IMG/VR virus record: IMGVR_UViG_3300042516_004440
Span: 1-24,337 of that record
Direction: 5' to 3' (one strand)
Length of the DNA: 24,337 nt
Source of the DNA: a virus
Shown in pieces: positions 12,886-23,732 of the stretch; position 1 is the first letter of the stretch; each line of letters begins with the position of its first letter. A program made the position numbers and the translations under genes. The notes below the pieces were generated by a model. That model worked only from the letters and a program-made list of their open reading frames with translations. It was not told where the DNA came from and made no database searches.

Positions 12886-12906
12886 TTTTTCCCCCCTTAT
12901 ATATAG

Positions 12907-13074
12907 TCATCTTGCATAACTTCTTGGGTCTATCTGCTTAGTTCCTAAACAGAAACCGCACTCGCTTGCGTGAGCATAGCCCAAAGCCCCAGCCAAATTA
13001 GCAACTCCGCAAGACCTCATCAACAGACAAGCAAACTCTTGGTCGGTAAGTCCTGCTTGTAAATCATCAGCCAT
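12907..13074 (-). CDS. Hypothetical Cys-containing protein (55 aa)
   Basis: Starts MADDLQAGLTDQEFACLLMR at ATG 13074, which overlaps the previous gene's stop (ATGGCTGA) and has AGAGG upstream; an upstream TTG in frame would run deep into that gene. It has Cys in SCGV and in ECGFCLGTKQ, and Pro/Arg-rich last residues. Not recognised; possibly a small metal-binding protein. Confidence 0.6.
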   Translation of the reverse strand: MADDLQAGLTDQEFACLLMRSCGVANLAGALGYAHASECGFCLGTKQIDPRSYAR

Positions 13075-13237
13075 TTTTAGCCTCTTCTTTTTCAAATTGA
13101 ATTGCTTTATCTAAATCTATGTCGCAATAAGGGATACCCTTGTAAATTGTTATAGGTATCTCACTTGTATCTGCCCAGCAAACTTCGCAAGACTCCAACC
13201 CCGTGTATGGACTTGGGTGATTAACTTTTCTACTCAT
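13067..13237 (-). CDS. Small CxxC protein (56 aa)
   Basis: MSRKVNHPSPYTGLESCEVC, then WADTSEIPITIYKGIPYC, then a charged C-terminal helix DLDKAIQFEKEEAKNG. C-x2-C plus a later Cys looks like a partial zinc ribbon. The start overlaps the previous stop (ATGA), and its own stop overlaps the next start. Coupling on both sides supports a real gene. Function unknown. Confidence 0.65.
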   Translation of the reverse strand: MSRKVNHPSPYTGLESCEVCWADTSEIPITIYKGIPYCDIDLDKAIQFEKEEAKNG

Positions 13238-13428
13238 ACTAAAATCCCTTCTAATCCTTCGTCATTTCCAAAGTCGGTAGGGCTTACCAAGTCCAACCAC
13301 TCTCTGAATAAATAAATCAAACCTTCTTGTTCTTGTTGCTTTTGTTCATATAGTTCTTCATAAAAAGAATACGCTTCTCTTTCCCAGTTATCGGCAAGAG
13401 ATAATTCTTCTAATATATAGATAGGCAT
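13234..13428 (-). CDS. Small acidic helical protein (64 aa)
   Basis: MPIYILEELSLADNWEREAY, then a Glu/Gln-rich helix (EELYEQKQQEQEGLIYLFRE) and an acidic C-terminus. The ATG directly abuts the element at 13429-13448, whose AAAGGGG serves as ribosome site. First gene of a three-gene coupled run ending at 12907. Not recognised. Confidence 0.6.
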   Translation of the reverse strand: MPIYILEELSLADNWEREAYSFYEELYEQKQQEQEGLIYLFREWLDLVSPTDFGNDEGLEGILV

Positions 13429-13463
13429 TTTTTCCCCTTTATATGTAGAAACCTGCCCTACCC

Positions 13464-13652
13464 TTACGGGTAGAGCAAGTCCTTACAAAAACTATTCATC
13501 TGCTCAACTGGAACTTTACACATTTCGGGAGTTGTAGCGTCAAACGCCCAAGCAATAAGAGCGAGCGCAATAAGCCCAACCGCAATTCTGCGACGAATAA
13601 ACTTTGCTTCTGTTTTCACTTTGTCCCTGCTTTCTGTGGCTCCCTTAGCCAC
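13464..13652 (-). CDS. Small single-span membrane protein (62 aa), leaderless GTG start
   Basis: Residues 1-22 are charged (KGATESRDKVKTEAKFIRRR). Residues 23-37 (IAVGLIALALIAWAF) form a membrane helix. The outer part has two Cys (MCKVP, SFCKDLLYP). There is no ribosome site before GTG 13652. Instead TAGAAA, 17 bp, TAAAGT ends seven bases upstream, so the transcript would start at or next to the GTG. The stop codon lies inside a small hairpin (CTACCC-GTAA-GGGTAG) that may help terminate. Confidence 0.6.
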   Translation of the reverse strand: MAKGATESRDKVKTEAKFIRRRIAVGLIALALIAWAFDATTPEMCKVPVEQMNSFCKDLLYP

Positions 13653-13685
13653 TAGTAGAACTTTACCAAACTTTCCTGACTTTTT

Positions 13686-13880
13686 CTACTTTCCTGCTTT
13701 CTTTCCACTTTGGGCGTGTCCTGCTAGTTCTAGCAACTCGGCAACTGTCCTTTGTGGGAAGTAGGGAGAGTGTCTATCTTTGAGCATTACTGAAACAACT
13801 AGGTGGCTTCTTTTCTTTTTTGAGGCGTGCTTGATGTGTCCTAGTGTTCCTAGTATCGCACTATCGGGTAAGAATTTCAT
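13686..13880 (-). CDS. Small basic protein (64 aa) from a leaderless message
   Basis: MKFLPDSAILGTLGHIKHAS, then KKKRSHLVVSVML, RHSPYFPQRTVAELLELAGH and a Lys-rich end. Strongly basic; nucleic-acid binding is possible but no family is recognised. A canonical promoter, TTGAAA, 17 bp, TAGAAT, ends exactly six bases before the ATG and there is no ribosome site, so the mRNA is expected to be leaderless. Confidence 0.65.
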   Translation of the reverse strand: MKFLPDSAILGTLGHIKHASKKKRSHLVVSVMLKDRHSPYFPQRTVAELLELAGHAQSGKKAGK

Positions 13881-13886
13881 AGCTTT

Positions 13887-13915
13887 ATTCTAGCAACTTT
13901 CCTGACTTTTTTCAA
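13887..13915 (-). promoter_or_regulatory. Canonical promoter with leaderless start
   Basis: TTGAAA (13910-13915), 17-bp spacer AAAGTCAGGAAAGTTGC, TAGAAT (13887-13892), then AAAGCT and ATG. It is the clearest of the shared-spacer promoters. Confidence 0.85.
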
Positions 13916-13959
13916 ATACATTTTTTCCCCTTTATATATAGACGGAGAAAAATATCCCC

Positions 13960-14601
13960 CTACTTAGCAAGCAAATTGACCCTCATCAACGAGTCGCCTT
14001 TTCGCAAATTACATACTCCGTGAGTGGGGCGAATGTTGCCTAACTTATCGTGTCCACCTTTTATTAAAGGTATTAGGTGGTCTAAGTGTAAGCCCATTGT
14101 TTTATGCCCTGTGCGTGGAAGTGATAGGTCAATGTCTGTATGGCATACCCAACACTCCAAGCCGTAACGCTCAACTACTTGTGAGAGGTTGTAAGCGTGG
14201 TGATTTACTCCATACTTTCTTGCTCGCCTTGCTCTGTCGTGGTTAGCGTATTTCTCTTTGTTGTGAATGTAATTAAAGTGGTTGCTACGCTTTGCCTTGC
14301 GTGGGTTTTTCTCTTTCCATTTCGCACTTCTTTTACGAGCCTTCTCTTGTAAGTCGGGTCGCTTGGCGTATGTTTCTGCTCTTTCTTTAGATGTTGGTAT
14401 TTTTCCTTCTAAAGTTCTTTTGCGATTACTCTCTCTACCAATACGGCGAAACCATTCAATGTTTTCTGAGCGATACTCTGCTACTTTCTTGCGAGTGTAT
14501 TCTCTCATTGCTTCAACGCATAACTCGCAAGGAGTTTCTCCTTTTGCTTTCTGTCGTCTATAAGACGCGATAGTTCCACAAGGTTGAAGTGTTCTTGGCA
14601 T
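13960..14601 (-). CDS. HNH endonuclease with N-terminal Cys domain
   Basis: A 213-aa protein. Residues 7-40 (PCGTIASYRRQKAKGETPCE, LCVEAMREYTRKK) are the PCGT..AYRR..GE.PC..C motif common in actinobacterial and actinophage proteins. A Lys/Arg-rich middle follows. Residues 140-205 carry the HNH fold: YGLECWVCHTDIDL, MGLHLDHLIPLIKGGHDKLG, then NIRPTHGVCNLRKG, with C-x2-C zinc ligands, the LDH catalytic His and a C-N-x-x-K end. It may cut DNA as a homing nuclease or take part in packaging or replication. The leader has a perfect hairpin with an AAGGGA loop. Confidence 0.88.
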   Translation of the reverse strand: MPRTLQPCGTIASYRRQKAKGETPCELCVEAMREYTRKKVAEYRSENIEWFRRIGRESNRKRTLEGKIPTSKERAETYAKRPDLQEKARKRSAKWKEKNPRKAKRSNHFNYIHNKEKYANHDRARRARKYGVNHHAYNLSQVVERYGLECWVCHTDIDLSLPRTGHKTMGLHLDHLIPLIKGGHDKLGNIRPTHGVCNLRKGDSLMRVNLLAK

Positions 14602-14618
14602 TTTACTTACTCCCTAAT

Positions 14619-14640
14619 CACTCGCTTCCCTTAGCGAGTG
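14619..14640 (-). promoter_or_regulatory. Leader hairpin with AAGGGA loop
   Basis: CACTCGCT-AAGGGA-AGCGAGTG, a perfect 8-bp stem, 17 bases before the start codon of the HNH gene at 14601. The same loop and the inner part of the stem recur before the second HNH gene (15564-15579). Confidence 0.85.
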
Positions 14641-14649
14641 TGTAAGTTA

Positions 14650-14678
14650 ATTGTAATCTACTTTCCTGACTTTATCAA
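14650..14678 (-). promoter_or_regulatory. Promoter of the HNH gene at 13960-14601
   Basis: TTGATA (14673-14678), spacer AAGTCAGGAAAGTAGAT (17), TACAAT (14650-14655). Confidence 0.75.
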
Positions 14679-14723
14679 CGCTATTCATAGCGAGTCGTTT
14701 TTTCCCCTTTATATATAGAGGAG

Positions 14724-14753
14724 AAAAAATAACCCCCACCTTTCGGTGGGGGC
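14724..14753 (-). terminator. Rho-independent terminator
   Basis: On the minus strand GCCCCCACC-GAAA-GGTGGGGG, then TTATTTTTT. It ends the unit of the second HNH gene plus the 40-aa gene. Confidence 0.9.
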
Positions 14754-14760
14754 TTACTTT

Positions 14761-14883
14761 TTAGAGCGCACCTTCTTGCGCTAGACCTATCTCTAAGTCT
14801 AAGAGTTCGGCAGGTGTGGCTTCCTCTAGATTTACCCAGCCAGCACCTTCCTCATCTATGCGAAAGATTTCTACATATCCCAT
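14761..14883 (-). CDS. Small acidic protein (40 aa)
   Basis: MGYVEIFRIDEEGAGWVNLE, then EATPAELLDLEIGLAQEGAL. The ATG lies six bases after the HNH stop, with GGTGGGG overlapping that stop as ribosome site. It is followed immediately by a strong terminator. Not recognised; the coupling and terminator make it a likely real gene. Confidence 0.65.
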   Translation of the reverse strand: MGYVEIFRIDEEGAGWVNLEEATPAELLDLEIGLAQEGAL

Positions 14884-14889
14884 TTGTAA

Positions 14890-15561
14890 TCACCCCACCT
14901 TCATTAGTGCTTTGTATTGCTTTGTTCTCTTTATCTTAGTGCTTGTTGCCTTGTCTTGTAAAGCAAACTGAAAACGCCAAGAATTAACTTCTAGGTGTGT
15001 CTTTATTCTATGGCAAGTAGAGCAACGGACAACACATTTTTTCATTTCTTTTTGTAGTAAATCAAGAGATGTATTACTTAGTAACGCTGTTCCTATATCA
15101 AACTTTTTACTGTGAGTGTGGTCAAACTCTAGTGCCAATATATTATTCTCACCGCAGTCAATACAAGGGTGCTTCTTTAGATAATTAAATACATAAGTTC
15201 TTGCGTCAAGCCTTCTAGCATCGTGATTTTTCTTTTGTCTTTTAGAAACACAAGGCTTACATTTACCTTCCCAGCCAGCCTTACCATTTGCCTGTATCTT
15301 AGGCTGAAAGTTAGATAGTGCCTTTGCTTTGCCACAACCATTACAAGGTCGCTTACCTTGCTTTAATAAGGCTCTGCGCTTCTCTGAACGCTTCTCTGAA
15401 CCTTTACGCAAGATGGCTTGGCACTTCTTACATCTTGCTCTTTTTCCGTATTGACCTTGTTCGTGCTTATTAAACTTTGATAGCGGTAGAGGATAGAAAC
15501 ACCCGATACATACTTTTGTTTTTTCCTTTGGCAATTTGATTACCCCTTTATCCCTATTCAC
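14890..15561 (-). CDS. HNH endonuclease with tandem zinc-ribbon modules
   Basis: A 223-aa protein if started at GTG 15561. Three C-x2-C modules occur: CIGCFYPLPLSKF and CKKC; CNGCGKAKALSNF and CKPC; CIDCGENNILALEFDHTHSK with CSTCHRIKTH. The last has the F-D-H of the HNH active site and zinc-coordinating Cys pairs. This is the phage-type HNH with N-terminal zinc ribbons. An alternative start is TTG 15534, which has a better ribosome site (AAAGGGG, eight bases upstream) than the GTG. Function as a DNA nuclease is likely; target unknown. Confidence 0.82.
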   Translation of the reverse strand: MNRDKGVIKLPKEKTKVCIGCFYPLPLSKFNKHEQGQYGKRARCKKCQAILRKGSEKRSEKRRALLKQGKRPCNGCGKAKALSNFQPKIQANGKAGWEGKCKPCVSKRQKKNHDARRLDARTYVFNYLKKHPCIDCGENNILALEFDHTHSKKFDIGTALLSNTSLDLLQKEMKKCVVRCSTCHRIKTHLEVNSWRFQFALQDKATSTKIKRTKQYKALMKVG

Positions 15562-15593
15562 CTTCGCTTCCCTTAGCGAGTGTGTATGGCTTT

Positions 15594-15623
15594 ATTCTAC
15601 ACGACTTTCCTGACTTTTCACAA
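15594..15623 (-). promoter_or_regulatory. Promoter of the HNH gene at 14890-15561
   Basis: TTGTGA, 18 bp (AAAGTCAGGAAAGTCGTG), TAGAAT (15594-15599). Confidence 0.65.
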
Positions 15624-15677
15624 TATGGAACTAAATCGGTGTTTCGTGCGTCTAACAATATAGAAACGAAAAGGGTA

Positions 15678-15699
15678 TTTATATATAAGAGGGGGAAAA
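15678..15699 (+). promoter_or_regulatory. Conserved element on the plus strand, abutting a start codon
   Basis: TTTATATATAAGAGGGGGAAAA, ending one base before ATG 15701. It has the same layout as the minus-strand copies, so the element goes with gene direction. Confidence 0.7.
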
Positions 15700-15700
15700 T

Positions 15701-15811
15701 ATGAACTATCAAGACGCTTGGGAAATTAAACGACCTACAACTAACTGTCTTATTTGCGGAGATGAAACTATAAATAATTATCTCTGTGAGGAATGCGCTG
15801 AACACTACTGA
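15701..15811 (+). CDS. Micro zinc-ribbon protein (36 aa)
   Basis: MNYQDAWEIKRPTTNCLICG, then DETINNYLCEECAEHY. Two C-x2-C pairs separated by nine residues form a minimal treble-clef or zinc ribbon. The start directly follows the plus-strand copy of the conserved element, which supplies AGGGGG as ribosome site. It lies on the opposite strand to its surroundings. A reading frame on the other strand (15554-15856) is a shadow of this region. Confidence 0.72.
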   Translation: MNYQDAWEIKRPTTNCLICGDETINNYLCEECAEHY

Positions 15812-15833
15812 TAAGCGACACGCCAATAACAAG

Positions 15834-15861
15834 TTCCCACACTTACAACGGCACATAGAAT
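15834..15861 (+). promoter_or_regulatory. Probable promoter of the second micro-protein
   Basis: TTCCCA, 16 bp, TAGAAT (15856-15861), then AAATTAAG. It lacks the AAGTCAGGAAAG spacer. Confidence 0.5.
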
Positions 15862-15897
15862 AAAATTAAGATACAAGCCAAGAGAAAGGGAACTCAA

Positions 15898-16014
15898 GTG
15901 GCAAGAGTAAAAGCAAGAGAGGTAATGATTTGGATAAATTGTTATCGGTGCGGAGAGGTATTTGAGATTAGGCAGATAGATTACTACCGCAACATAATCT
16001 GCGAAAAGTGCTAA
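15898..16014 (+). CDS. Micro zinc-ribbon protein (38 aa)
   Basis: Starts at GTG 15898 with AAAGGGA upstream: ARVKAREVMIWINCYRCGEV, then FEIRQIDYYRNIICEKC and stop. Two C-x2-C pairs (CYRC, CEKC) 16 residues apart suggest one zinc site. A start at the internal ATG of MIWINCYRC is possible but has a poorer ribosome site. It ends just before a strong terminator. With its neighbour it forms a plus-strand island inside leftward genes. Confidence 0.68.
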   Translation: MARVKAREVMIWINCYRCGEVFEIRQIDYYRNIICEKC

Positions 16015-16020
16015 AGGTAG

Positions 16021-16047
16021 CCCCCGAGAAATCGGGGGTTATTTTTT
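16021..16047 (+). terminator. Rho-independent terminator of the plus-strand island
   Basis: CCCCCGA-GAAA-TCGGGGG followed by TTATTTTTTG. Confidence 0.9.
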
Positions 16048-16049
16048 GT

Positions 16050-16069
16050 CTATATATAGGGGGGAAAAA
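16050..16069 (+). promoter_or_regulatory. Conserved element facing antisense to the Ntn-hydrolase gene
   Basis: CTATATATAGGGGGGAAAAA on the plus strand, directly after the island's terminator, pointing into the 3' end of the leftward gene at 16070. No plus-strand gene follows it. Confidence 0.65.
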
Positions 16070-16639
16070 CTAAACTCGGTATTGAGTCAAAAGATAAAAA
16101 GGCTCGGCAGTTTTATTATCAAACTTTGAGGATACGGCGAGCGCAGTTTTAATAGCTGACCTTGCGTTAGTGAGAGTTCTTTTCTTTCCTTCTGATAGGG
16201 CATTGAGAACCCCTAAAGCATAGGCTGAACCTGAACCAACGGCATACGCCCCAACTGTATCGTGGCACCAAGAAAAGTCCTCACCTATTTCATAGATAGT
16301 TCCATTGACCAAGATAACTAACTGACTTTCGTGTTCCCCGTCTTTTGAGTATGAGGCTTCCTCAAAACACTTTTTTAGTTCCGGGATAAATACGGCAGTA
16401 ATAAACTTATCTAATTTCAAACCTAAAGTTGTTGTGGTACATACTGGTGGCTTAAAAACGTGGGCTAATATATTTATTGCTCTTACATCCCCAGCCACGG
16501 CAATTATGTAATTACCATTCTTAAAAACTTTTCCATTATCTTTCGGCAGAATATAAGTCCTGCCATCTTCCTCTGAAACCCTAGAGTCATAGCCAATAAC
16601 CGCCCAGCCTTCACCCTGAACCGCAGCTATTGTTGTCAA
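16070..16639 (-). CDS. Proteasome beta/HslV-like Ntn hydrolase
   Basis: A 189-aa protein, start TTG 16639 with AAGGA upstream. The mature N-terminus would be T-T-I-A-A-V after Met removal, giving the catalytic Thr1. GYDSR supplies the Asp17 equivalent (residue 18), and NGKVFKNGNYIIAVAGD supplies the Lys33 equivalent (residue 37) and the AGD strand. YAVGSGSAYALGVLNAL is the conserved GSGS of 20S beta subunits and HslV. Length fits a single beta-type subunit; no ATPase partner is seen here. It is the second gene of a unit with the 81-aa gene upstream. It could process phage or host proteins; the substrate is unknown. Confidence 0.82.
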   Translation of the reverse strand: MTTIAAVQGEGWAVIGYDSRVSEEDGRTYILPKDNGKVFKNGNYIIAVAGDVRAINILAHVFKPPVCTTTTLGLKLDKFITAVFIPELKKCFEEASYSKDGEHESQLVILVNGTIYEIGEDFSWCHDTVGAYAVGSGSAYALGVLNALSEGKKRTLTNARSAIKTALAVSSKFDNKTAEPFYLLTQYRV

Positions 16640-16653
16640 GATTTTTTCCTTAC

Positions 16654-16899
16654 TTAGTAGTTAAAGTCATTCCACAATTCATCACGCAAGGCATACTCAT
16701 ATTTATCGGCAAGGTGAGAGTTTTTCTCTCCTATATCCTCACTTTCAATAAGTCTGTCTAACGAAAGAACGGCGGTGTATTCGTTGTCCTCAAACATTAT
16801 TACTATCTTTGTATCTCCTTCGGCAGGGTCATCAACGATAGCCACAACGAAGGGGGCATTATTTCCATTAGGGTGATAAACCTTTTGAACTATTTCCAT
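16654..16899 (-). CDS. Hypothetical protein upstream of the Ntn hydrolase (81 aa)
   Basis: MEIVQKVYHPNGNNAPFVVA, then IVDDPAEGDTKIVIMFEDNE, then a helical acidic end. Predicted beta-rich with a C-terminal helix. There is no clear ribosome site; the start context TTAGAGTATGG nearly matches that of the leaderless-type gene at 17736. Fourteen bases separate its stop from the Ntn-hydrolase start, so the two are probably cotranscribed. Not recognised. Confidence 0.65.
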   Translation of the reverse strand: MEIVQKVYHPNGNNAPFVVAIVDDPAEGDTKIVIMFEDNEYTAVLSLDRLIESEDIGEKNSHLADKYEYALRDELWNDFNY

Positions 16900-16952
16900 A
16901 CTCTAAAGAATAACCTCACCCGGCCTTCCTGATTTTTCCCCTTCTTATATAG

Positions 16953-16979
16953 AAAAACCCCCCACCTTTCGGTGAGGGG
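16953..16979 (-). terminator. Rho-independent terminator
   Basis: Minus strand CCCCTCACC-GAAA-GGTGGGGGG then TTTTTC. Confidence 0.9.
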
Positions 16980-16987
16980 CTTAGAGA

Positions 16988-17224
16988 CTATTCGCCCCAT
17001 AACTCTTCTAAGGTATCGGGCTCATAGGGGTTGCCTATCTCCTCTTGTTCCTTTTCAAAAGTCCAAGCGTTACCGCACTCGCATTTTACTTCTGAGGATA
17101 CATTCCCCCAGTCGTCGGTCATAAAGTCTTCTTCCCAAGCCTTACCGCAACTACCGCACTCAACTTCAAGTGTTACATCTTCGGAGTAGATACCCGAACC
17201 TTTCATACTTCCTTCATAACTCAT
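16988..17224 (-). CDS. Zinc-ribbon protein (78 aa)
   Basis: MSYEGSMKGSGIYSEDVTLE, then VECGSCGKAWEEDF, then VKCECGNAWTFEKE. C-x2-C and C-x-C about 22 residues apart form a zinc ribbon like those in transcription-associated proteins. The C-terminus is acidic. The ribosome site AAGGGAG lies within a TAACT/AGTTA-bracketed leader. A single-gene unit with promoter (17254-17282) and terminator. Function unknown. Confidence 0.72.
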   Translation of the reverse strand: MSYEGSMKGSGIYSEDVTLEVECGSCGKAWEEDFMTDDWGNVSSEVKCECGNAWTFEKEQEEIGNPYEPDTLEELWGE

Positions 17225-17253
17225 AACTTTCTCCCTTCTGAGTTAGTGTCTCT

Positions 17254-17282
17254 ATTCTACATTACCTATCTGACATTCTCAA
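17254..17282 (-). promoter_or_regulatory. Promoter of the zinc-ribbon gene
   Basis: TTGAGA, 17 bp (ATGTCAGATAGGTAATG), TAGAAT. Confidence 0.8.
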
Positions 17283-17288
17283 TAGGGA

Positions 17289-17381
17289 CACTTCACCCCC
17301 GCTAGGGAGGCAGGGGTGAGGTGCGATAGGCAGGGAAGCCTATCTCAACGGGGAGCGATAGGAAGGGAATCCTCGCTACTA
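17289..17381 (-). ncRNA. Cluster of three hairpins with UUCCCU-type loops, candidate regulatory RNA
   Basis: Three stems in 90 bases (plus-strand positions). AGCG-AGGA / TCCT-CGCT with a two-base bulge spans 17354-17377. GATAGGC / GCCTATC spans 17325-17344. CACCCC / GGGGTG spans 17294-17318. On the transcribed minus strand the first two loops are both UUCCCU and the third contains CCUCCCUAGC. No reading frame and no U-tract is present. A TAGAAT (17393-17398) with a poor -35 lies just upstream. It could equally be the 3' region of the gene at 17431. Confidence 0.6.
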
Positions 17382-17430
17382 CCCGGACTACCATTCTAGC
17401 ATTATTGTTTTACTTCAAAAACTTTTTCCC

Positions 17431-17736
17431 CTACCCGTTGAAGCAGTCGGGACACTCCAGCTGTCTCATCTGACCGCTTACCTCACTTCTTATTTTCCCC
17501 TCTCCGTAGCAAGTCTCGCAGTTTGGGTCTCCCTCATCAAGAACGCCAATATGATTTGAAACGGCGACTACATCCCAACCGTATTGCTCTTTCAAAATAT
17601 TACCCGCAGCCCTAAGGCAAGCGTCCTCATATATCTCGCCGTCTTGTAAGTCATCTTCTGATACGGCAACGCTGACTATCATTGAAAAGTAATCACCGAT
17701 AAACATTACATTTTTTATATTCATTATCTTATCCAT
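17431..17736 (-). CDS. Protein with DnaJ-like zinc-ribbon end (101 aa)
   Basis: MDKIMNIKNVMFIGDYFSMI, a beta/helix domain (SVAVSEDDLQDG, EDACLRAAGNILKEQYGWDV), then C-E-T-C-Y-G-E-G-K ... C-P-D-C at residues 73-98, like one CxxCxGxG repeat of DnaJ. A -10-like TAGGAT ends six bases before ATG with no ribosome site, suggesting a leaderless message. Its 3' end runs into the hairpin cluster without a terminator. Function unknown. Confidence 0.7.
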   Translation of the reverse strand: MDKIMNIKNVMFIGDYFSMIVSVAVSEDDLQDGEIYEDACLRAAGNILKEQYGWDVVAVSNHIGVLDEGDPNCETCYGEGKIRSEVSGQMRQLECPDCFNG

Positions 17737-17742
17737 ACTCTT

Positions 17743-17771
17743 ATCCTACCCTTTCCTGGATCCTTTTTCTT
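17743..17771 (-). promoter_or_regulatory. Leaderless-type promoter
   Basis: AAGAAA, 17 bp (AAGGATCCAGGAAAGGG), TAGGAT, six bases, ATG. The -35 overlaps the end of a conserved GGGGAAAAAA element (17770-17790). Confidence 0.6.
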
Positions 17772-17790
17772 TTTTCCCCTTTATATGTAG

Positions 17791-17819
17791 AAAGAGCCCC
17801 AACCTTTCGGCGGGGCTCC
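17791..17819 (-). terminator. Rho-independent terminator
   Basis: Minus strand GGAGCCCCGCC-GAAA-GGTTGGGGCTC then TTTCT. Confidence 0.88.
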
Positions 17820-17833
17820 CTTTCTTTTCTACT

Positions 17834-18142
17834 CTAGGCGTATTCCTTGAGTTCTGATAGTCGGCGGGGTGTCCAGTTGATATCTCTTTCAACGGCAGGA
17901 ATATCTATCCCGCCCATTGTTAGTTTCAGGCTTTGTAACTCTTTCAGGCTGAAGTAGCCTAACTCCTTCTCGAAGCCGTGAACGATACCGAAGAACATAT
18001 CTTCTCCATCAAACTCCATCGCATACCAAGTCCAGTTGCTTGCTAGTGCGAAGAATTTACATACTAGGACGGGGTCGCCCTCATTCTCATTAGCGTAAAG
18101 CGGTGGTAACTTCTTGCGAAGTTCTTTCGTTAGTAGTTCCAT
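17834..18142 (-). CDS. DUF2958 family protein
   Basis: A 102-aa protein: MELLTKELRKKLPPLYANEN, DPVLVCKFFALASNWTWYAM, FGIVHGFEKELGYFSLKELQ, then VERDINWTPRRLSEL. These are the diagnostic blocks of DUF2958, a small family widespread in phages and conjugative elements whose function is unknown. ATG 18142 is the start (AGGGAAA upstream). The frame stays open to a TTG at 18211, but that stretch is a structured leader. Confidence 0.88.
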   Translation of the reverse strand: MELLTKELRKKLPPLYANENEGDPVLVCKFFALASNWTWYAMEFDGEDMFFGIVHGFEKELGYFSLKELQSLKLTMGGIDIPAVERDINWTPRRLSELKEYA

Positions 18143-18170
18143 TTTCCCTATTCTTTCCCTAGTTGTTAGC

Positions 18171-18245: not shown

Positions 18246-18252
18246 TATCTTT

Positions 18253-18281: not shown

Positions 18282-18325
18282 CACTTACCGCACTCATTCT
18301 TTTTTCCCCTTTATATATAGAAAGG

Positions 18326-18636: not shown

Positions 18637-18743
18637 TTTGGTTCCCCCTTTCTGTTTCCCTAGTGGTGTATTAATTTTATCCTACTTCACTGACTTTTCC
18701 AACGACATCCGTTAGATTTCTTTTTTCCCCTTCATATATAGAT

Positions 18744-18887
18744 TTAGATAAACTCAGTCAAGTCCCTATCACTTATCTCGCTTACATCAACGCCGTGTGA
18801 CTCCGCTATTGCTTCCCACAAGTCATCTTCCGAAAAACTTCCATCGGGATGCCACTCCATAAGAATACTCAAGTAATCTCTTTCCAC
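18744..18887 (-). CDS. Small acidic protein (47 aa)
   Basis: GTG start two bases after the previous gene's stop, with GAGGAGG as ribosome site: ERDYLSILMEWHPDGSFSED, then DLWEAIAESHGVDVSEISDR and DLTEFI. All helical and acidic. Its last codons touch a conserved GGGGAAAAAA element (18721-18741). Not recognised. Confidence 0.7.
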   Translation of the reverse strand: MERDYLSILMEWHPDGSFSEDDLWEAIAESHGVDVSEISDRDLTEFI

Positions 18888-18888
18888 T

Positions 18889-19350
18889 TTAGTCCTCCTC
18901 TCTCATTAGTGTGAAAGTGAATCGTGCCCCACCCGTTGGTTCATCGTGGCTCGCCCGGCTTGCGGTAAAGGTAGTGGCGCCGTCCCAAGTAGCGGTAATA
19001 CGGAAGTCGCCTCTGATAGTTAGTGCTTCCAATACTTCTTTGAATTTCTTTACGGCGTATCCGCTATCTTTGTTCCAACCCAAGCCAACGCCGTCGATAC
19101 GGACCAAGTCCCAAGTAACGCCGACTTTACCTCGCCACGCTTCAAGCGCATCATAGAAACTACTTTTACTATCGTCCCAGCAAGCGAAGCAAGAATCTGA
19201 AGGTGTTAGTTCTTTGTCGCACTCTTCACACTTTTGGTCATCTTCATAACGGACATACCCCACGCCACAATCATTACAATCGAAGCAACGGCAATCGCTA
19301 CTTAGTTCAATCTCCCAGTAAGCCTCTTTTTCTTTTACTGCTGAAGTCAT
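18889..19350 (-). CDS. Hypothetical protein with N-terminal zinc motifs (153 aa)
   Basis: Residues 19-56 hold C-R-C-F-D-C-N-D-C, C-E-E-C and C-F-A-C, enough for one or two zinc sites. The rest is an alpha/beta domain (SSFYDALEAWRGKVGVTWDL, VRIDGVGLGWNKDSGYAVKK, then RITATWDGATTFTASRASHD). The N-terminal ribbon could bind RNA or DNA. The leader has CTAGGGAAAGG. First of two coupled genes. Not recognised. Confidence 0.7.
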   Translation of the reverse strand: MTSAVKEKEAYWEIELSSDCRCFDCNDCGVGYVRYEDDQKCEECDKELTPSDSCFACWDDSKSSFYDALEAWRGKVGVTWDLVRIDGVGLGWNKDSGYAVKKFKEVLEALTIRGDFRITATWDGATTFTASRASHDEPTGGARFTFTLMREED

Positions 19351-19460
19351 TCTTTTTCCTTTCCCTAGTTGTTGAACGACAATCCAATTTTATCATAGAT
19401 ACTTATTTCCCGGCCAGTATCTCTTCCCGTTTTCTTTTTTCCCCTTCATACATAGTAGGG

Positions 19461-19500
19461 AGAAAAAAAGAAACCCCTCGCCATTTAGCAAGGGGCTTCT
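19461..19500 (-). terminator. Rho-independent terminator
   Basis: Minus strand CCCCTTGC-TAAATG-GCGAGGGG then TTTCTTTTTTT. Confidence 0.88.
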
Positions 19501-19511
19501 CTTTACTTTTG

Positions 19512-19898
19512 TTATCCGTAGATTAGTTCTCCGAATACCGCATACTGAATTACGATGTCGCCGAAGCAAGCGTCGTTATCTTCAAGGTCAAGTGTGTGAC
19601 CGCCACAATGAGTTGCGTTTTCAATCATAGCCTTCTCGAATCCTTCACGAAGCTTCTCAAGAGATACATCGTGCCACTTCTCTTCTTCATCTTCATAGAC
19701 TCGGAAGTTCTGTGGATTTGTAACTGACTCACCGTTAGCATCGTCAATCCATAAGTCAATGTCCTCGCCGTTTTCATTTCTGATTTCGGTAGACCAGTGA
19801 ACCATTCCTGCGCCGTCTGAACCAAAGACGGCTTCCCACAACTCGCCTACTGTGAAAGTTACCGTTTTGGTAACCGTCATTTTGTCTGAGTTATTCAT
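19512..19898 (-). CDS. Acidic hypothetical protein (128 aa)
   Basis: MNNSDKMTVTKTVTFTVGEL, WEAVFGSDGAGMVHWSTEIR, a long acidic middle (DEEEKWHDVSLEKLREGFEK), then DNDACFGDIVIQYAVFGELI. The DAC..DI..QYAVFGE..YG ending is shared by a family of small phage proteins of unknown function. Start ATG 19898 sits at the foot of a 7-bp hairpin whose loop is the ribosome site AGGG (19899-19916). Confidence 0.72.
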   Translation of the reverse strand: MNNSDKMTVTKTVTFTVGELWEAVFGSDGAGMVHWSTEIRNENGEDIDLWIDDANGESVTNPQNFRVYEDEEEKWHDVSLEKLREGFEKAMIENATHCGGHTLDLEDNDACFGDIVIQYAVFGELIYG

Positions 19899-19916
19899 TT
19901 GTTCTCCCTAGAACAA
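19899..19916 (-). promoter_or_regulatory. Hairpin with the ribosome site as its loop, touching the start codon
   Basis: TTGTTCT-AGGG-AGAACAA followed at once by ATG. When folded, the only good ribosome site is a tetraloop. Confidence 0.8.
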
Positions 19917-19949
19917 TCGGCTTATCCCTAATGATTTGCCGTTGAGATA

Positions 19950-19978
19950 ATAATACTCCACTTCCCTGCCTTTTTCAA
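19950..19978 (-). promoter_or_regulatory. Canonical promoter
   Basis: TTGAAA, spacer AAGGCAGGGAAGTGGAG (17), TATTAT. Confidence 0.82.
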
Positions 19979-20004
19979 GTATTTCTTTTTTCCCCTTTAT
20001 ACAT

Positions 20005-20031
20005 AGAAAAACCCCCGCCGTAGCGGGGGCT
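20005..20031 (-). terminator. Rho-independent terminator
   Basis: Minus strand GCCCCCGC-TAC-GGCGGGGG then TTTTTC. Confidence 0.88.
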
Positions 20032-20038
20032 TCTCAAT

Positions 20039-20182
20039 CTAGTCCTCGTCATAGTATGAGTCGTATTTATCACTTCTCATCTTTGCTATGACTCTTGCTT
20101 TTATTGCTTCGTCCGAACCGTATAGGTGTCCTTCGCAATCACCCATTTCGTGTCCGCAACAAGGAAAGTCCTCACAAGCCAT
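20039..20182 (-). CDS. Small CEDFPCCG protein (47 aa)
   Basis: MACEDFPCCGHEMGDCEGHL, then YGSDEAIKARVIAKMRSDKY and an acidic end. The M-[AS]-C-E-D-x-P-C-C-G-H-E pattern with a further Cys and His looks like a compact metal site; similar very short proteins occur in many actinophages, function unknown. Own promoter (20214-20242), AGGGAGATAAAA ribosome site and terminator. Confidence 0.75.
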   Translation of the reverse strand: MACEDFPCCGHEMGDCEGHLYGSDEAIKARVIAKMRSDKYDSYYDED

Positions 20183-20213
20183 TTTTATCTCCCTAGTGCT
20201 AGCCGTTATCTCT

Positions 20214-20242
20214 ATTCTACTTTACTTACCTGCCTTTTTCAA
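20214..20242 (-). promoter_or_regulatory. Canonical promoter
   Basis: TTGAAA, spacer AAGGCAGGTAAGTAAAG (17), TAGAAT. Confidence 0.85.
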
Positions 20243-20278
20243 TACTTTCATTTTTTCCCCTTCATACATAGATAGGGG

Positions 20279-20317
20279 AAAACCCCGCAAACGAAAATAG
20301 TTTTACATCTGCGGGGC
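20279..20317 (-). terminator. Two-tier hairpin terminator
   Basis: CCCCGCA / TGCGGGG with an inner AAAA-CTA-TTTT helix, then TTTTCC on the minus strand. Confidence 0.8.
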
Positions 20318-20331
20318 CCGGAAATAACAAT

Positions 20332-20655
20332 CTAATCTCCGTAGTATCCGTAGTCCTCGTCCGTTCCGTGTCCTGCGCTCGCAAGCGTATCGGCGTCCGC
20401 TTCTACATCACTCATCTCGTAGTAATTTGGAACTCCCTCGTTCGTTACTTCGTAACCCGTTCCTTCTGCGTTCATAGTGTTTTCCTGAATAGTCCAATCC
20501 GCTTCGTCCCAACGAACCTCGTCCGTCATCACCTTGCCGATTTCATCTATGAACCTTTGTATGACCGCTTCGGCTTCTTCCATACTGCTCGCCTTGATTT
20601 CTGTTATTGAGATAGTTAGGTCTTGCCCCGTTGAGTAATACTTTTCTGCTCTCAT
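20332..20655 (-). CDS. Acidic hypothetical protein (107 aa)
   Basis: MRAEKYYSTGQDLTISITEI, a helix SSMEEAEAVIQRFIDEIGKV, then a strongly acidic, Tyr-rich C-terminus (SDVEADADTLASAGHG, DEDYGYYGD). The ribosome site GAGGGG lies in the last codons of the previous gene, four bases away. Second gene of a pair. Not recognised; the acidic tail may suggest a DNA-mimic, but that is a guess. Confidence 0.68.
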   Translation of the reverse strand: MRAEKYYSTGQDLTISITEIKASSMEEAEAVIQRFIDEIGKVMTDEVRWDEADWTIQENTMNAEGTGYEVTNEGVPNYYEMSDVEADADTLASAGHGTDEDYGYYGD

Positions 20656-20659
20656 TTAT

Positions 20660-20794
20660 TTACCCCTCTATTCCGTAGTCTTGGCAAACTAGCATTACCG
20701 CATCATCTAAATCAGCGATAAGCATTTCTATCTCATCACCCGTCATTCCCTTAGTCATCTCTGCGCTTACTGCTGAAGTCCATACATCTTTCAT
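20660..20794 (-). CDS. Small helical protein (44 aa)
   Basis: MKDVWTSAVSAEMTKGMTGD, then EIEMLIADLDDAVMLVCQDY, GIEG. Acidic, helical. It has promoter TAGAAA, 17 bp, TAGAAT (20839-20867), a leader hairpin with AAGGG loop (20816-20832) and AAAAGGAAA as ribosome site. Not recognised. Confidence 0.68.
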   Translation of the reverse strand: MKDVWTSAVSAEMTKGMTGDEIEMLIADLDDAVMLVCQDYGIEG

Positions 20795-20815
20795 TTGATT
20801 TCCTTTTCCCTAGCC

Positions 20816-20832
20816 GTTAGCCCCTTGCTAAC
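20816..20832 (-). promoter_or_regulatory. Leader hairpin with AAGGG loop
   Basis: GTTAGC-AAGGG-GCTAAC, perfect 6-bp stem, upstream of CTAGGGAAAAGG and the start of the 44-aa gene. Confidence 0.8.
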
Positions 20833-20916
20833 AACTCTATTCTACCAAGCCTTACTGACTTTTTCTACAACCTCGTGCCGTTTTATTTTTTCCCCTTTAT
20901 ACATAGATAGGGGAAA

Positions 20917-20946
20917 AAGCAAAAACCCCCTGCTTTCGCAAGGGGT
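20917..20946 (-). terminator. Rho-independent terminator
   Basis: Minus strand AACCCCTTGC-GAAA-GCAGGGGG then TTTTTGCTTTTT. Confidence 0.88.
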
Positions 20947-20966
20947 TCGTGCCGACTAGGGATTGT

Positions 20967-21401
20967 CTATTTAGTAGATACTACTGTGTAAGTAGTTTCC
21001 ACTTTAGTCTTGGCAAAGACTTCAGGGAAATCTGCTTCTAGTAGTTTCTTATTTACATCTGTGCGTGAGCGTTGTCCGATTGTAATTCGTGTTCCGCCAT
21101 TTATTGTTCCCTTTGTAGCAACGCCGACCCATTTTTCGGTATCGCCAATCAAGACTTTTTCCCAACCCATAAGCGCATAAATCGCTTCTGTGGCTTCTGT
21201 CTTTTCCTTTTCCAAATCGGTAATTGCTTCACGCAATCTAACCAATTCAGCAATCAAGGCTTCTGCCTTTTTCTTGCTCTTATCAAGTGAAAGAACTTCA
21301 CTTGTTGCGCTAACTGTTGTTTCATCAACAACTGTTTTGATTGTCTTACCAGCAACCTTTTTGGTTGTGGCTGTGGTGCTTGTTTTGATAGTGCTAGCCA
21401 T
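20967..21401 (-). CDS. Coiled-coil protein (144 aa), possibly recombination-associated
   Basis: Residues 1-40 are Thr/Val/Lys-rich. Residues 43-76 form a coiled coil (KKKAEALIAELVRLREAITD, LEKEKTEATEAIYALMG). Residues 85-144 are a beta-rich end finishing with SRTDVNKKLLEADFPEVFAK, TKVETTYTVVSTK. The coil followed by a RxxVDxKxLxxxxPE...R end resembles the C-terminal part found in phage YqaJ/RecE-like exonucleases and their small relatives. That likeness is weak and from memory. Promoter TTGCGA, 17 bp, TATTAT (21459-21487). Confidence 0.68.
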   Translation of the reverse strand: MASTIKTSTTATTKKVAGKTIKTVVDETTVSATSEVLSLDKSKKKAEALIAELVRLREAITDLEKEKTEATEAIYALMGWEKVLIGDTEKWVGVATKGTINGGTRITIGQRSRTDVNKKLLEADFPEVFAKTKVETTYTVVSTK

Positions 21402-21458
21402 TGGCTACTTCCTACCTTTCGTTTCGTCATTTACTAAGCGTGATTGCCTAGTAAGAAA

Positions 21459-21487
21459 ATAATAGCCTACTTTCCTGCCTTTCGCAA
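21459..21487 (-). promoter_or_regulatory. Promoter of the coiled-coil gene
   Basis: TTGCGA, spacer AAGGCAGGAAAGTAGGC (17), TATTAT. Confidence 0.78.
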
Positions 21488-21509
21488 ATCCAAACCTTTT
21501 CGTGTCGCT

Positions 21510-21530
21510 CTATGTATAAGGGGGAAAAAA
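21510..21530 (+). promoter_or_regulatory. Conserved element on the plus strand, antisense to flanking genes
   Basis: CTATGTATAAGGGGGAAAAA lies seven bases before the 3' end of the leftward gene 21537-21740 and points into it. No plus-strand gene follows. Confidence 0.65.
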
Positions 21531-21536
21531 CAAGGG

Positions 21537-21740
21537 TCAATAGCCTTCTGCGTAAATCTCCTGCTCATCATCATAAAGACCTGTGTAAATAACAATCTGT
21601 CCTTCGTTGTCGTATTCGTATCCAACTCTGGCAGACAATCTCTCAACTAGGTATTGAGTGTCTATGAATAGTCGGGAAAGTCCGAAACCAATCGCACCAC
21701 CAACAATCATCATTAGTAAAGTAAATCCGTTGAAAAACAT
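21537..21740 (-). CDS. Small N-terminally anchored membrane protein (67 aa)
   Basis: MFFNGFTLLMMIVGGAIGFG is a membrane helix (residues 4-22). The rest is soluble and acidic (LSRLFIDTQYLVERLSARVG, YEYDNEGQIVIYTGLYDDEQ). The start overlaps the previous stop by one base (TAATG). Last of a four-gene leftward run starting near 22672. Not recognised. Confidence 0.65.
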   Translation of the reverse strand: MFFNGFTLLMMIVGGAIGFGLSRLFIDTQYLVERLSARVGYEYDNEGQIVIYTGLYDDEQEIYAEGY

Positions 21741-21901
21741 TATTTATCCTCGCAATCGTGGTATCCAGCATAATAAATACTCTCTAGCCGTTCGGCTAAC
21801 ATCTTTGTTGCCTTGTCTATGTCGGGCATACTCGCCTCAAAATACATAATCTGTTCGGCTTGTTCTCTTACATCTCTGCGGACTTCCTTTTTAGTTCTCA
21901 C
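21740..21901 (-). CDS. Small helical protein (53 aa)
   Basis: GTG start overlapping the previous stop (GTGA): RTKKEVRRDVREQAEQIMYF, then EASMPDIDKATKMLAERLES and IYYAGYHDCEDK. Amphipathic helical, basic N-terminus. Stop overlaps the next ATG. Coupling on both sides supports it. Not recognised. Confidence 0.68.
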   Translation of the reverse strand: MRTKKEVRRDVREQAEQIMYFEASMPDIDKATKMLAERLESIYYAGYHDCEDK

Positions 21902-22137
21902 GCCGTTTCACACTTTCCGTATGTCTTTTCCCAGCAAGCAGGGTGCGTGCCTGAAATCATTTGCTCACGCAAGCCTAAATCTAAATCGGGATAAGCCTCT
22001 TGGATAAGACCGCCTAATTGTCTAACTAGGAAACCTTCCATAGGAACTTCTACTTGCCCGTAATCTCCACACACAAAACATTTTGGAGTTTCCACAATGT
22101 AAGTTGTGTTCTTTACCATTTCACCGAAAGCCGTCAT
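21898..22137 (-). CDS. Zinc-binding hypothetical protein (79 aa)
   Basis: Residues 20-30 C-F-V-C-G-D-Y-G-Q-V-E, then later H-P-A-C-W-E-K at residues 65-71. C-x2-C ... H-x2-C gives a four-ligand zinc site, and CFVCG followed by a V-E-V-P strand is a pattern seen in small actinophage proteins. Ribosome site AAAGGGA. Promoter TTGATT, 17 bp, TAGAAT (22166-22194) overlaps the end of the upstream gene. Confidence 0.72.
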   Translation of the reverse strand: MTAFGEMVKNTTYIVETPKCFVCGDYGQVEVPMEGFLVRQLGGLIQEAYPDLDLGLREQMISGTHPACWEKTYGKCETA

Positions 22138-22165
22138 TTATTTTCCCTTTCTGTTCGGTATCTTT

Positions 22166-22194
22166 ATTCTACTCTTTTTAGTGGTGGAAATCAA
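22166..22194 (-). promoter_or_regulatory. Internal promoter within a gene run
   Basis: TTGATT, 17 bp, TAGAAT. Its -35 lies in the last codons of the gene at 22178, and it lacks the shared AAGTCAGGAAAG spacer. Confidence 0.65.
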
Positions 22195-22672
22195 CAATAA
22201 CCGCAAATTGTTTTTTGGGTTCTTTTTCTATTCTCTCCATAAGATAAGCAAGACTTCCTGTTCCTGCCTCTAAATCCCAAATCGCACTATCGTTATTCCA
22301 ATAGTCAGCAAGTAAAGTTCCAACCTTCCTTATGTAGTAGCCGACCATACCTAAATCAAAGTTATTTATTCTTGGGTCATAAGTATCTATAACTTCTCCT
22401 AAAGTTTTTCCCTCTTTCTCAAAAGCAGTAAGAGCTTCTTTCATATGAGTATGGCGATACTCGGAAAAAGTATTTACCCACTTCATAAATACTTCAGGGT
22501 CGTTCGCATAGTTCAGCGCATTAGTAGGTTCATCATCTCCGAACATACCTTCCCAACGCCCACCAACAGTAGACCAATCAGACCAATCTGCTTCCTCTAG
22601 TCTGCTCTCAACATTACTTATTGCTTCTTGGTGGGTATCTGCCTCAACCAAGAGTAATTGGACACAATGAAT
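22178..22672 (-). CDS. Hypothetical protein (164 aa) with probable ATT start
   Basis: The first usual start is TTG 22651 (VEADTHQEAISNVESRLEEA), with no ribosome site. Seven codons upstream, in frame and without a stop, an ATT at 22672 sits six bases after the GGGG of a conserved element. That is essentially the spacing used for ATG at 12885, 13428 and 23185. Reading from there gives IHCVQLLLVEADTHQEAISN, a normal first beta strand. The protein continues with W-S-D-W-S, GRWEGMFGD and long helices. Not recognised; it resembles phage proteins that start M-H-x-V. Confidence 0.65.
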   Translation of the reverse strand: MHCVQLLLVEADTHQEAISNVESRLEEADWSDWSTVGGRWEGMFGDDEPTNALNYANDPEVFMKWVNTFSEYRHTHMKEALTAFEKEGKTLGEVIDTYDPRINNFDLGMVGYYIRKVGTLLADYWNNDSAIWDLEAGTGSLAYLMERIEKEPKKQFAVIVDFHH

Positions 22673-22693
22673 TTTTTTCCCCTTCCTATGTAG
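22672..22693 (-). promoter_or_regulatory. Conserved element abutting an ATT codon
   Basis: CTACATAGGAAGGGGAAAAA, then A and ATT on the minus strand. Confidence 0.7.
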
Positions 22694-22717
22694 TATGGGG
22701 TAAATTCTATCATAGAA

Positions 22718-23185
22718 CTATTCTAAATCAAGAACCACGACTTGTCTGCCCTCAACCTGTGGAACTTGATTATTCTCAATCATACAAACATTTACAAACT
22801 GCTCAATCAAATACTCACACGCTTGGTCAAAGGCTTCATCTGCTTCGTGATTTACCATATCCAAATGCTCTCCGTCATTTGTGTAAATATCAAACCACGA
22901 ATTGTTTTGCCACTCTAGTCTTGGATAGTTTTCTTGACTAGCTTCGGAAAGGTCTTTATCCGTTCTTAGTTCCGGGGGAAACTCACTACTGCTGGTGTAA
23001 GTCGAACCCGTTTCTCTATCCTCAATCTTGGTGTCGCCGTCTACATAAATCGTAACCTCGAAATCCCCCAAGCCGACTTTACAAACCGCACCCTTCTCCC
23101 ACCACACGCTTTCTTGGTGGTCGCCGTCAGGTTCGCTTCCGTCAAGCCAAAAGAACTCAATCTCGTATTCCCCTGCCGTTGGCAT
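22718..23185 (-). CDS. Acidic hypothetical protein (155 aa)
   Basis: MPTAGEYEIEFFWLDGSEPD, WWEKGAVCKVGLGDFEVTIY, then a helical end (ADEAFDQACEYLIEQFVNVC) and QVEGRQVVVLDLE. No family recognised. The ATG directly follows the element at 23186-23205, which supplies AAAGGGG. Second gene after the 50-aa gene upstream. Confidence 0.7.
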   Translation of the reverse strand: MPTAGEYEIEFFWLDGSEPDGDHQESVWWEKGAVCKVGLGDFEVTIYVDGDTKIEDRETGSTYTSSSEFPPELRTDKDLSEASQENYPRLEWQNNSWFDIYTNDGEHLDMVNHEADEAFDQACEYLIEQFVNVCMIENNQVPQVEGRQVVVLDLE

Positions 23186-23205
23186 TTTTTCCCCTTTATA
23201 TATAG
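23186..23205 (-). promoter_or_regulatory. Conserved element abutting an ATG
   Basis: CTATATATAAAGGGGAAAAA directly followed by ATG; matches the family consensus exactly. Confidence 0.85.
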
Positions 23206-23209
23206 AAGG

Positions 23210-23362
23210 CTATGAAAGTTCTCTTACATCAAGATTGGCTTTGTGTATCAGGTCGCCGTATTCCTGTCGCACCCAATCCTCTGCTTGCCGTAGAGCCTCT
23301 TGCTCGTTATCGGCTTGCCATACAGTTCTGATATTTGCTGAAACTACTACTTCGTATTTCAT
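23210..23362 (-). CDS. Small protein (50 aa)
   Basis: MKYEVVVSANIRTVWQADNE, then QEALRQAEDWVRQEYGDLIH and KANLDVRELS: two strands and a helix. ATG 23362 is chosen because GAAAGGAAAAAG lies just upstream; the frame is open back to 23395 without a better start. Similar V-x-A-x-N-E-x-E-A-x-x-x-A-x-x patterns occur in short phage proteins of unknown function. Confidence 0.68.
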   Translation of the reverse strand: MKYEVVVSANIRTVWQADNEQEALRQAEDWVRQEYGDLIHKANLDVRELS

Positions 23363-23441
23363 CTTTTTCCTTTCGTCATTTGGTCTTACTCCCAAATCGT
23401 ATCATAGAACTTCCTTGACCCGTCAATAGCAACTAAAGTTT

Positions 23442-23732
23442 TCAGTTCATTTCTTTCATCAGTTGTTTTTGAGCGTAGATTTCAGGAGCATCAAAAACAT
23501 TATTCGGAAATGAAAATCTAAGTTCAGGATATTTTTACTCTTTCTGAAACCCGGAAAATAAGTTATTCACTTCCGTAATGCTGAAGGGCTTTTTACGCTC
23601 AACGATTTTTAATTCACGCTCGCTTTTCTGCTGCGTGAGTGGTGGAAGTGAAAACTTTACTTCCGTTAGAAAAGCTCTCCCTTCTTTTTTCCCCTTCTTA
23701 TATAGAACTCTTTTCCCCTTCATACATAGCAA
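23442..23732 (-). pseudogene. Open frame interrupted by a single TAA
   Basis: In one frame, codons down to 23538 encode EVKFSLPPLTQQKSERELKI, VERKKPFSITEVNNLFSGFQ, KE. A TAA at 23535-23537 follows, and the same frame then continues KYPELRFSFPNNVFDAPEIY, AQKQLMKEMN to TGA at 23442. Both halves have protein-like composition and no frame change. No convincing start codon or ribosome site is visible: the 5' part overlaps two tandem conserved elements. Options are a nonsense-inactivated gene fragment, stop readthrough, or a sequencing error. Not recognised. Confidence 0.5.
23685..23729 (-). repeat. Tandem pair of conserved elements
   Basis: CTATGTATGAAGGGGAAAAG (23710-23729) is followed after five bases by CTATATAAGAAGGGGAAAAA (23685-23705). 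This is the only place with two adjacent copies. Confidence 0.8.

Follow-up and report, generated by a model that had tools for sequence, protein, structure and literature searches.

The stoperators of cluster A mycobacteriophages are short asymmetric sites of 13–14 bp that occur 20–30 times per genome in promoters and short intergenic gaps, are mostly oriented with transcription, and have a consensus that varies by lineage; their reader, L5 Rep, is a two-domain repressor of about 183 amino acids (aa) found in temperate phages (according to the available parts of PMC9283540 and PMC6550527). In cluster K mycobacteriophages, start-associated sequences (SAS) of 13 bp, GGGATAGGAGCCC, lie 3–9 bp from start codons, mostly in the non-structural gene region, and sometimes include the upstream stop codon. 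Upstream of them, extended start-associated sequences (ESAS) are found as companion inverted repeats with SigA-like promoters and a subcluster-specific consensus, and the function of SAS and ESAS is also unsettled as far as the available parts of PMC3203893, PMC11373665 and PMC12699233 state. Here we analyze a 20-bp element that recurs in the intergenic gaps of the IMG/VR virus record IMGVR_UViG_3300042516_004440; the whole analyzed stretch, 24,337 bases long, is further referred to as the window. The main new result is a turnover of the element among relatives of the window: sites are often kept at orthologous junctions, and their spelling is changed lineage-wide.

Judged by its sequence, the element is a member of neither described group, and its layout is comparable to both. 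The consensus of the L5-type stoperator is GATGACTGTCAAG; the window element is 20 bp long, and its consensus CTAYRTAWRAAGGGGAAAAA does not match it. The promoter-early-stem-loop cassettes of T4-type phages combine a hairpin and an early promoter in gaps and are tied to gene shuffling. A hairpin and a promoter are likewise found in the gaps considered here, and we know of no counterpart in T4-type cassettes of a 20-bp element between the two. As far as the cited parts describe cluster A stoperators, the likeness lies in many short gap sites oriented with transcription (with exceptions at 16050 and 21510) and in a lineage-specific consensus, and the difference in that 13 of the 65 sites collected here are strong dyads and that the spacing to promoters looks preferred. 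Moreover, cluster A phages are temperate, and a search for a tyrosine integrase in 11 relatives of the window, possibly incomplete, found none. The first-pass annotation of the window had likened the element to cluster K sequences, and as an analogy of placement this was borne out: the repeats occupy a non-structural region, occur at gene starts and sometimes include the upstream stop codon. Unlike SAS, as these are described in the parts cited, the element has another sequence, abuts a start in 5 of 19 copies, lies upstream of a promoter in many others, and changes its sequence far more between relatives. Finally, the intergenic repeats of phage DSL-LC01 (OQ999401) lie in a related gene region and also comprise a repeated promoter and a start-proximal repeat in gaps, but DSL-LC01 has a AAAGATGTTATAAT-type promoter and CGACGAAAGGACAA before starts, not the element.

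Copies of the element in the window

The window was searched on both strands with the 20-mer CTATATATAAAGGGGAAAAA, allowing at most 3 mismatches. This yielded 19 matches, all within 12887–23729 (16 on the minus and 3 on the plus strand), in agreement with the approximately 20 copies reported earlier for the right half; none were found in 100 dinucleotide shuffles of the window, and the reversed pattern had no matches. One match, 14709 (plus), is the other-strand half of the palindromic site 14699. An additional diverged copy, 15679 (plus), was taken in place of the overlapping 14709 when the set was tested against genes, so that it still contained 19 copies. The gene list was curated by hand and has a coding fraction of 0.766; the start of gene 22178 was set to ATT after comparison with G006. 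The copies are as follows.

12887..12906, minus strand: occupies the 21-bp gap that separates a stop codon from an ATG
13429..13448, minus strand: adjoins the ATG of gene 13234–13428
13922..13941, minus strand: upstream of promoter 13915–13887
14699..14718, minus strand: upstream of promoter 14678–14650; opposite-strand half at 14709–14728; also the edge of an HNH cassette that G005 lacks
15679..15698, plus strand: diverged copy with 5 mismatches; a plus-strand ATG follows after 3 bp
16050..16069, plus strand: at a convergent gene junction, behind a hairpin; counterparts with the same flanks in G003, G005 and G013
16933..16952, minus strand: before gene 16654–16899; CAG motif 6 bases away with TATTCT only, no full promoter
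17771..17790, minus strand: upstream of a weak promoter (weak −35)
18301..18320, minus strand: upstream of promoter 18281–18253
18722..18741, minus strand: upstream of promoter 18702–18674
19436..19455, minus strand: behind a terminator-like hairpin, no clear promoter
19987..20006, minus strand: upstream of promoter 19978–19950
20252..20271, minus strand: upstream of promoter 20242–20214; has the left arm TTTTCCCC
20887..20906, minus strand: upstream of promoter 20867–20839; near-perfect dyad with the left arm TTTTTCCCCTATC
21510..21529, plus strand: reversed, upstream of the minus-strand promoter 21487–21459
22674..22693, minus strand: just downstream of the promoter-like site 22731–22704; abuts an ATT
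23186..23205, minus strand: adjoins the ATG of gene 22718–23185; near this start, most other lineages carry a version of their own
23686..23705, minus strand: in a 482-bp gap, in tandem with 23710, no clear promoter
23710..23729, minus strand: in tandem with 23686; left arm CTTTTCCCC, no clear promoter

All 19 copies lie in intergenic gaps; 20,000 trials of random placement gave a mean of 4.17 copies in gaps and a maximum of 12. A copy is contained in 18 of the 22 gaps of at least 20 bp. The observation of a repeated, gap-located element is thus confirmed, and chance presence inside genes was not seen in the window. The stronger claim that each copy either abuts a start codon or precedes a complete promoter held in part. 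A start is abutted by five copies (12887, 13429, 15679 at 3 bp, 23186, and 22674 if ATT is the start), and eight lie upstream of a same-strand σ70-like promoter (13922, 14699, 17771, 18301, 18722, 19987, 20252 and 20887); four (16933, 19436, 23686 and 23710) precede a same-strand gene but show no clear promoter. The reported orientation toward the downstream gene is found in 17 copies, the exceptions being the reversed 21510 and 16050 between converging genes. Gene 22178 itself has an apparent ATT start at window position 22672, where G006 has ATG.

In five A-type records, duplicates included, 43 of 57 copies have a GC hairpin within 55 bases upstream, whereas a control distance gave 16 of 57. 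Of the 65 sites collected, 13 (5 of the 17 from the window) are strong dyads centered on the YR of TAYRTA, and the mean outer pairing was highest at offset 0 (4.75 of 10, compared to 2.3–4.4 at other offsets). Left arms carrying the lineage's own change were found in single copies of G013 (39003) and G012 (25315).

Change of the element among relatives

In 40 of 47 related loci, many of which are near-identical copies of one phage, a lineage-specific version of the element is among the four most over-represented 10-mers. The exceptions, several of them short, are L009, L013, L158 and L166 with few copies and L178, L198 and L199 with none. The versions are distributed as follows.

GGGGAAAAA: the window, G003, G005, L156, L157, L159
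GGGGGAAAA: G013, L164, L165
GGGGTAAAAA: G006, G009, G010, G012, L160–L163, L167–L173
GGGTAAAAATT: G008, G014
AGTAAAAAGTAAAAA: G015
TAGCAAAAAGTAAAAA-like: L174–L176, L179–L187, L197
AGGTAAAAAAT: L188, L190, L191, L196
GGATAAAAAT: L189, 6 copies
TTTTTTAGGGG: L192–L195, kinship with the element uncertain

The same region of DSL-LC01 holds unrelated repeats.

Orthologous junctions were compared using gene starts extrapolated from tblastn; genes 17834, 18412 and 18744 were left out, and genes 17431 and 18889 were covered in part. Near the 22718 gene, the site is kept with a changed spelling in the representatives of the A, G5, T, GT3 (G008), AGGT, A5GTA and TAGGGG lineages. Before the gene for an HslV-like peptidase, a site is present in G009, G010, G014, L188, L190, L181, L174, L183 and G015; in G006, a core 89 bases before this gene falls inside the preceding gene. 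For the 16654 gene, the distance from the core to the start equals 42–44 in all seven GGGGA, G5 and GGGGT representatives; all nine others lack the site. Upstream of the 17431 gene, the site precedes a weak promoter in G000, and in G010 and G012 it immediately adjoins the ATG; hence the site is not tied to one position. The same junctions with changing spelling are what would be expected of sites following a changing trans factor.

Distances to promoters

For the spacing scan, promoters were found without using the CAG spacer motif, and the 13 rows obtained correspond to 11 distinct gaps. The distances from the G-run to the −10 box in these gaps are 29, 34, 36.5, 37, 45.5, 46, 47, 47, 47, 48 and 49 bases. 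Equally concentrated distances occurred in 77 of 20,000 uniform draws after merging of the two gaps listed twice, and in 8 of 20,000 before it; we used the weaker figure. The spacing is thus moderately clustered, the G-run lying preferentially about 47 bp and less often 34–37 bp before the −10 box. The two groups are separated by about 11 bp, which is near one helical turn. If the first base of the −10 box is taken as −12, simple arithmetic places the last G near −60, or near −47 to −50. The bases between the element and the −35 box appear unrelated between gaps by eye. The gap families of the scan are imperfect, as distances 33, 34 and 47 are mixed in one row. The patterns used for CAG distances in relatives, periodicity, the spacing scan and the looser insertion/deletion analysis also accept three Gs. 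The CAG distances refer to CAG-type promoter sites only (in relatives, 21/125 A, 6/144 T and 4/193 A5GTA), and near-identical neighbors were collapsed both in these and in the list of relatives' copies.

In the window promoters from 13887 to 20867, the 17-bp spacer is itself conserved, AAGTCAGGAAAG, with GTGCAGGAAGG in relatives, which suggests a second signal between the −35 and −10 boxes.

Phage group and location of the element

The portal gene (6170–7855) matches phrog_776. Its nearest annotated relative, with 73% identity, belongs to the lake-water Actinomycetia phage DSL-LC01, followed by those of Microbacterium, Arthrobacter and Gordonia phages of 103–195 kb. The element region of relatives is flanked on one side by the CobT/AAA-ATPase genes and on the other by the peptidoglycan-binding and portal genes, and additional cores occur close to where the leftward RNR side starts. 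All 13 matches in G005 fall within 0.4–7.2 kb of 72.9 kb, and all 16 copies of its own version in G006 within 10.7–33.3 kb of 106 kb, outside the structural, tail and replication genes; the element was not found in structural and replication genes of these two genomes, and in both it is restricted to the non-structural region. The copies mark one region of the genome; a few cores of relatives do lie inside open reading frames (ORFs).

Several other features of this group were observed. The HslV/proteasome-like peptidase gene (window 16070–16639, minus strand, phrog_1040), with the start TTG-Thr-Thr, is present across the group. Upstream of the portal operon there is a non-coding block at about 9360–9545 (minus strand), GCCCGGAACGATTT ... 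AAGGTTCAT ... CGTACAA, an exact 14-mer of which occurs in 12 of 17 records, including distant ones; it is possibly a packaging site, an operator or an RNA, and the window had no Rfam match at gathering cut-offs. The palindrome AGCTGCAGCT is over-represented in G002, G003 and G012, with counts on both strands of 6, 6 and 8, i.e. 3–4 sites each. The DSL-LC01 region (L151 24000–43400) has a repeated promoter GATTCTAAAGATGTTATAATNGAATC with palindromic ends and the repeated CGACGAAAGGACAA before starts. In Arthrobacter phage Mimi (L155 7100–17900), the repeat AGTTACAAAA(C/A)TTGAATA is followed by a hairpin; its 10-mer has 15 matches in the first 50 kb, and it differs from the window element. No strong intergenic repeat was found in Pumpernickel.

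Discussion

We propose that the element may serve as an operator-like site bound by a sequence-specific protein of the phage itself, which would control the small-gene region, and assign this reading a probability of about one half. The controlled region would extend over the small genes that separate the CobT/AAA-ATPase genes from the structural operon. At copies upstream of promoters at the preferred distances, the bound protein could touch RNA polymerase, and at copies over a gene start it would be in the way of transcription; at 22674, just downstream of the promoter-like site 22731–22704, it would cover the first transcribed bases. We infer that a protein binds the sites, that it is encoded by the phage, and which sign its action may have (activation, repression or roadblock). 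Sites that are kept while their word is respelled among relatives are more suggestive of a place where a fast-evolving phage control protein docks than of a promoter or a ribosome site.

Several observations weigh against this proposal. The site before the HslV-like gene is absent in G000, G005, G013, G012, G008 and L192. Of 118 cores in six relatives' records, 12 are located well within ORFs that are shared with at least three other records; some of these ORFs run antisense across a gap. Only a minority of the sites are dyads (13 of 65). With a looser promoter set, the test of helical periodicity was not significant (p 0.34–0.61), so helical phasing is only a suggestion; outlying distances from the element to CAG are 5–7, 17, 37, 45, 51 and 64, and the spacing counts are not fully independent, as gap families share ancestry. 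Finally, the recognition helix of the protein considered next as a reader is nearly invariant while the site changes.

That protein is the following.

12283–12516, minus strand: helix-turn-helix (HTH) protein of 77 aa, candidate regulator only

It is present in 54 of 58 sequences searched. Its HTH_7 match is weak (E 5e-4, below the cut-off), and its sequence profile matches IS5376 transposase at 4e-4. The predicted structure is a three-helix HTH with a mean predicted local distance difference test (pLDDT) score of 68, and a Foldseek search with this model returned nothing at E ≤ 0.001. Among 16 non-DSL representatives, 7 have the lineage's element at or in the start of the HTH gene; the window's own lineage is not represented among these 7. 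As the reader of the element, the protein is thus a candidate only. A more elaborate version of the proposal, in which the regulator and its sites changed specificity together several times within one phage group, the places of many sites per genome being kept, giving about nine alphabets (GGGGAAAAA to TAGCAAAAAGTAAAAA), the reader is a stand-alone resolvase-type HTH protein of 60–77 aa, and the sites double as cassette crossover points, we regard as rather unlikely in its entirety.

Among the alternatives, a stoperator proper fares best, although we consider it doubtful. Here a bound repressor would act as an orientation-dependent roadblock, halting elongation at the borders between genes and thereby insulating or silencing each of them. 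The pointing of 17 of 19 copies to the downstream gene is consistent with it, as are the sites behind hairpins and between stop and start, and the one kept at the convergent junction, where blocking makes sense; in count, length and lineage-specific consensus the sites resemble those of L5 type, as the available parts of PMC9283540 and PMC6550527 describe them. However, the preferred spacing to the downstream promoter is not predicted by a roadblock, copy 21510 is reversed, and, as noted, the 11 possibly incomplete relatives yielded no tyrosine integrase.

The first-pass annotation had suggested a late or middle promoter whose transcript begins at GGGG, and this did not withstand analysis. In its general form, with a −10-like TATATA of its own and a modified polymerase, such a promoter would explain the TATA-like stretch 2–5 bp before the G-run in the A, G5 and G012 lineages and the many copies that come after hairpins. 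Yet TANNNT occurs in the first 14 bases of none of 18 copies (19436 forms TACTAT only together with its flank), and none of 31 promoter-like matches in 12,500–24,337 has its −10 box inside a copy. Moreover, sites persist without the TATA part in G006 and G010 and without the G-run in the AAAAAGTAAAAA lineages. A transcript start at GGGG was rejected on these grounds; a modified polymerase of other specificity may read the element. No σ70 region 2 match was found in the 11 relatives, all possibly incomplete, by a search that detected 10 of 14 controls; a search for a single-subunit RNA polymerase (RNA_pol) gave no match, but its controls were likewise undetected, so that it carries no weight. 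Given also that the structural and replication genes of G005 and G006 yielded no copy, a middle or late promoter of this kind is improbable.

Similarly low is the probability we give to a translation signal akin to SAS, in which a stop codon, a ribosome site and a start would form one module. The five start-abutting copies speak for it, as do the TAA of GGGGTAAAAATG versions, which can serve as the stop codon of the gene upstream (as at G006 24816), and the weak pairing with 16S rRNA possible for GGGG and AGGGG versions. On the other hand, 14 of the 19 window copies are away from a start, and complementarity to the 16S 3'-end at a fixed distance was not found. In L181, an AG-rich stretch separates the element from the start of the HslV-like gene. 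A ribosome site was rejected on account of the AAAAAGTAAAAA versions, which have no Shine–Dalgarno pairing; the TTTTTTAGGGG version, which could act as a ribosome site, was removed from this argument. With copies also standing upstream of promoters, the earlier view of a DNA-level signal is upheld.

Recombination between repeats that adds or removes small genes could also keep the element, as a boundary of cassette exchange. Among 71 distinct clean insertion/deletion junctions between relatives, a strict core is found at the empty site in 26 and at both edges of the insert in 11; a looser pattern gives 28 and 18, at least two of these being the ribosome-like GGGAAAA. Of the sequence, 5–8% lies within 25 bp of a core. 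The clearest junction is that of an HNH endonuclease cassette which G000, G003 and G004 carry and G005 lacks; in G005, the upstream flank of one copy runs directly into the downstream flank of the next. Of 11 relatives, 7 contain a small serine recombinase domain, which is partial in one of them. The association is suggestive only, because most gaps hold an element (18 of 22 in the window, so that a breakpoint in a gap will often be close to one in any case) and the same events recur between pairs, and as this explanation leaves the promoter spacing and the lineage-wide sequence change unaccounted for, we consider it very improbable. An RNA hairpin was rejected, strong left arms being present in only 13 of 65 sites, and so was a host signal, given that 84,980 species genomes contain 23 single scattered matches, none multi-copy. 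Within the library of open literature and the terms used, no paper was recognized as describing the element.

Dispersed phage operators are already known from cultured mycobacteriophages. Here a comparable arrangement is found in uncultured relatives of large actinobacteriophages, with wholesale replacement of site sequences between relatives at conserved positions. The element offers a feature by which the regulatory region of such phages can be recognized in annotation. If it is an operator-like site, the system would let the co-change of one regulator and many sites be tested, with ready-made alternative sets of sites.

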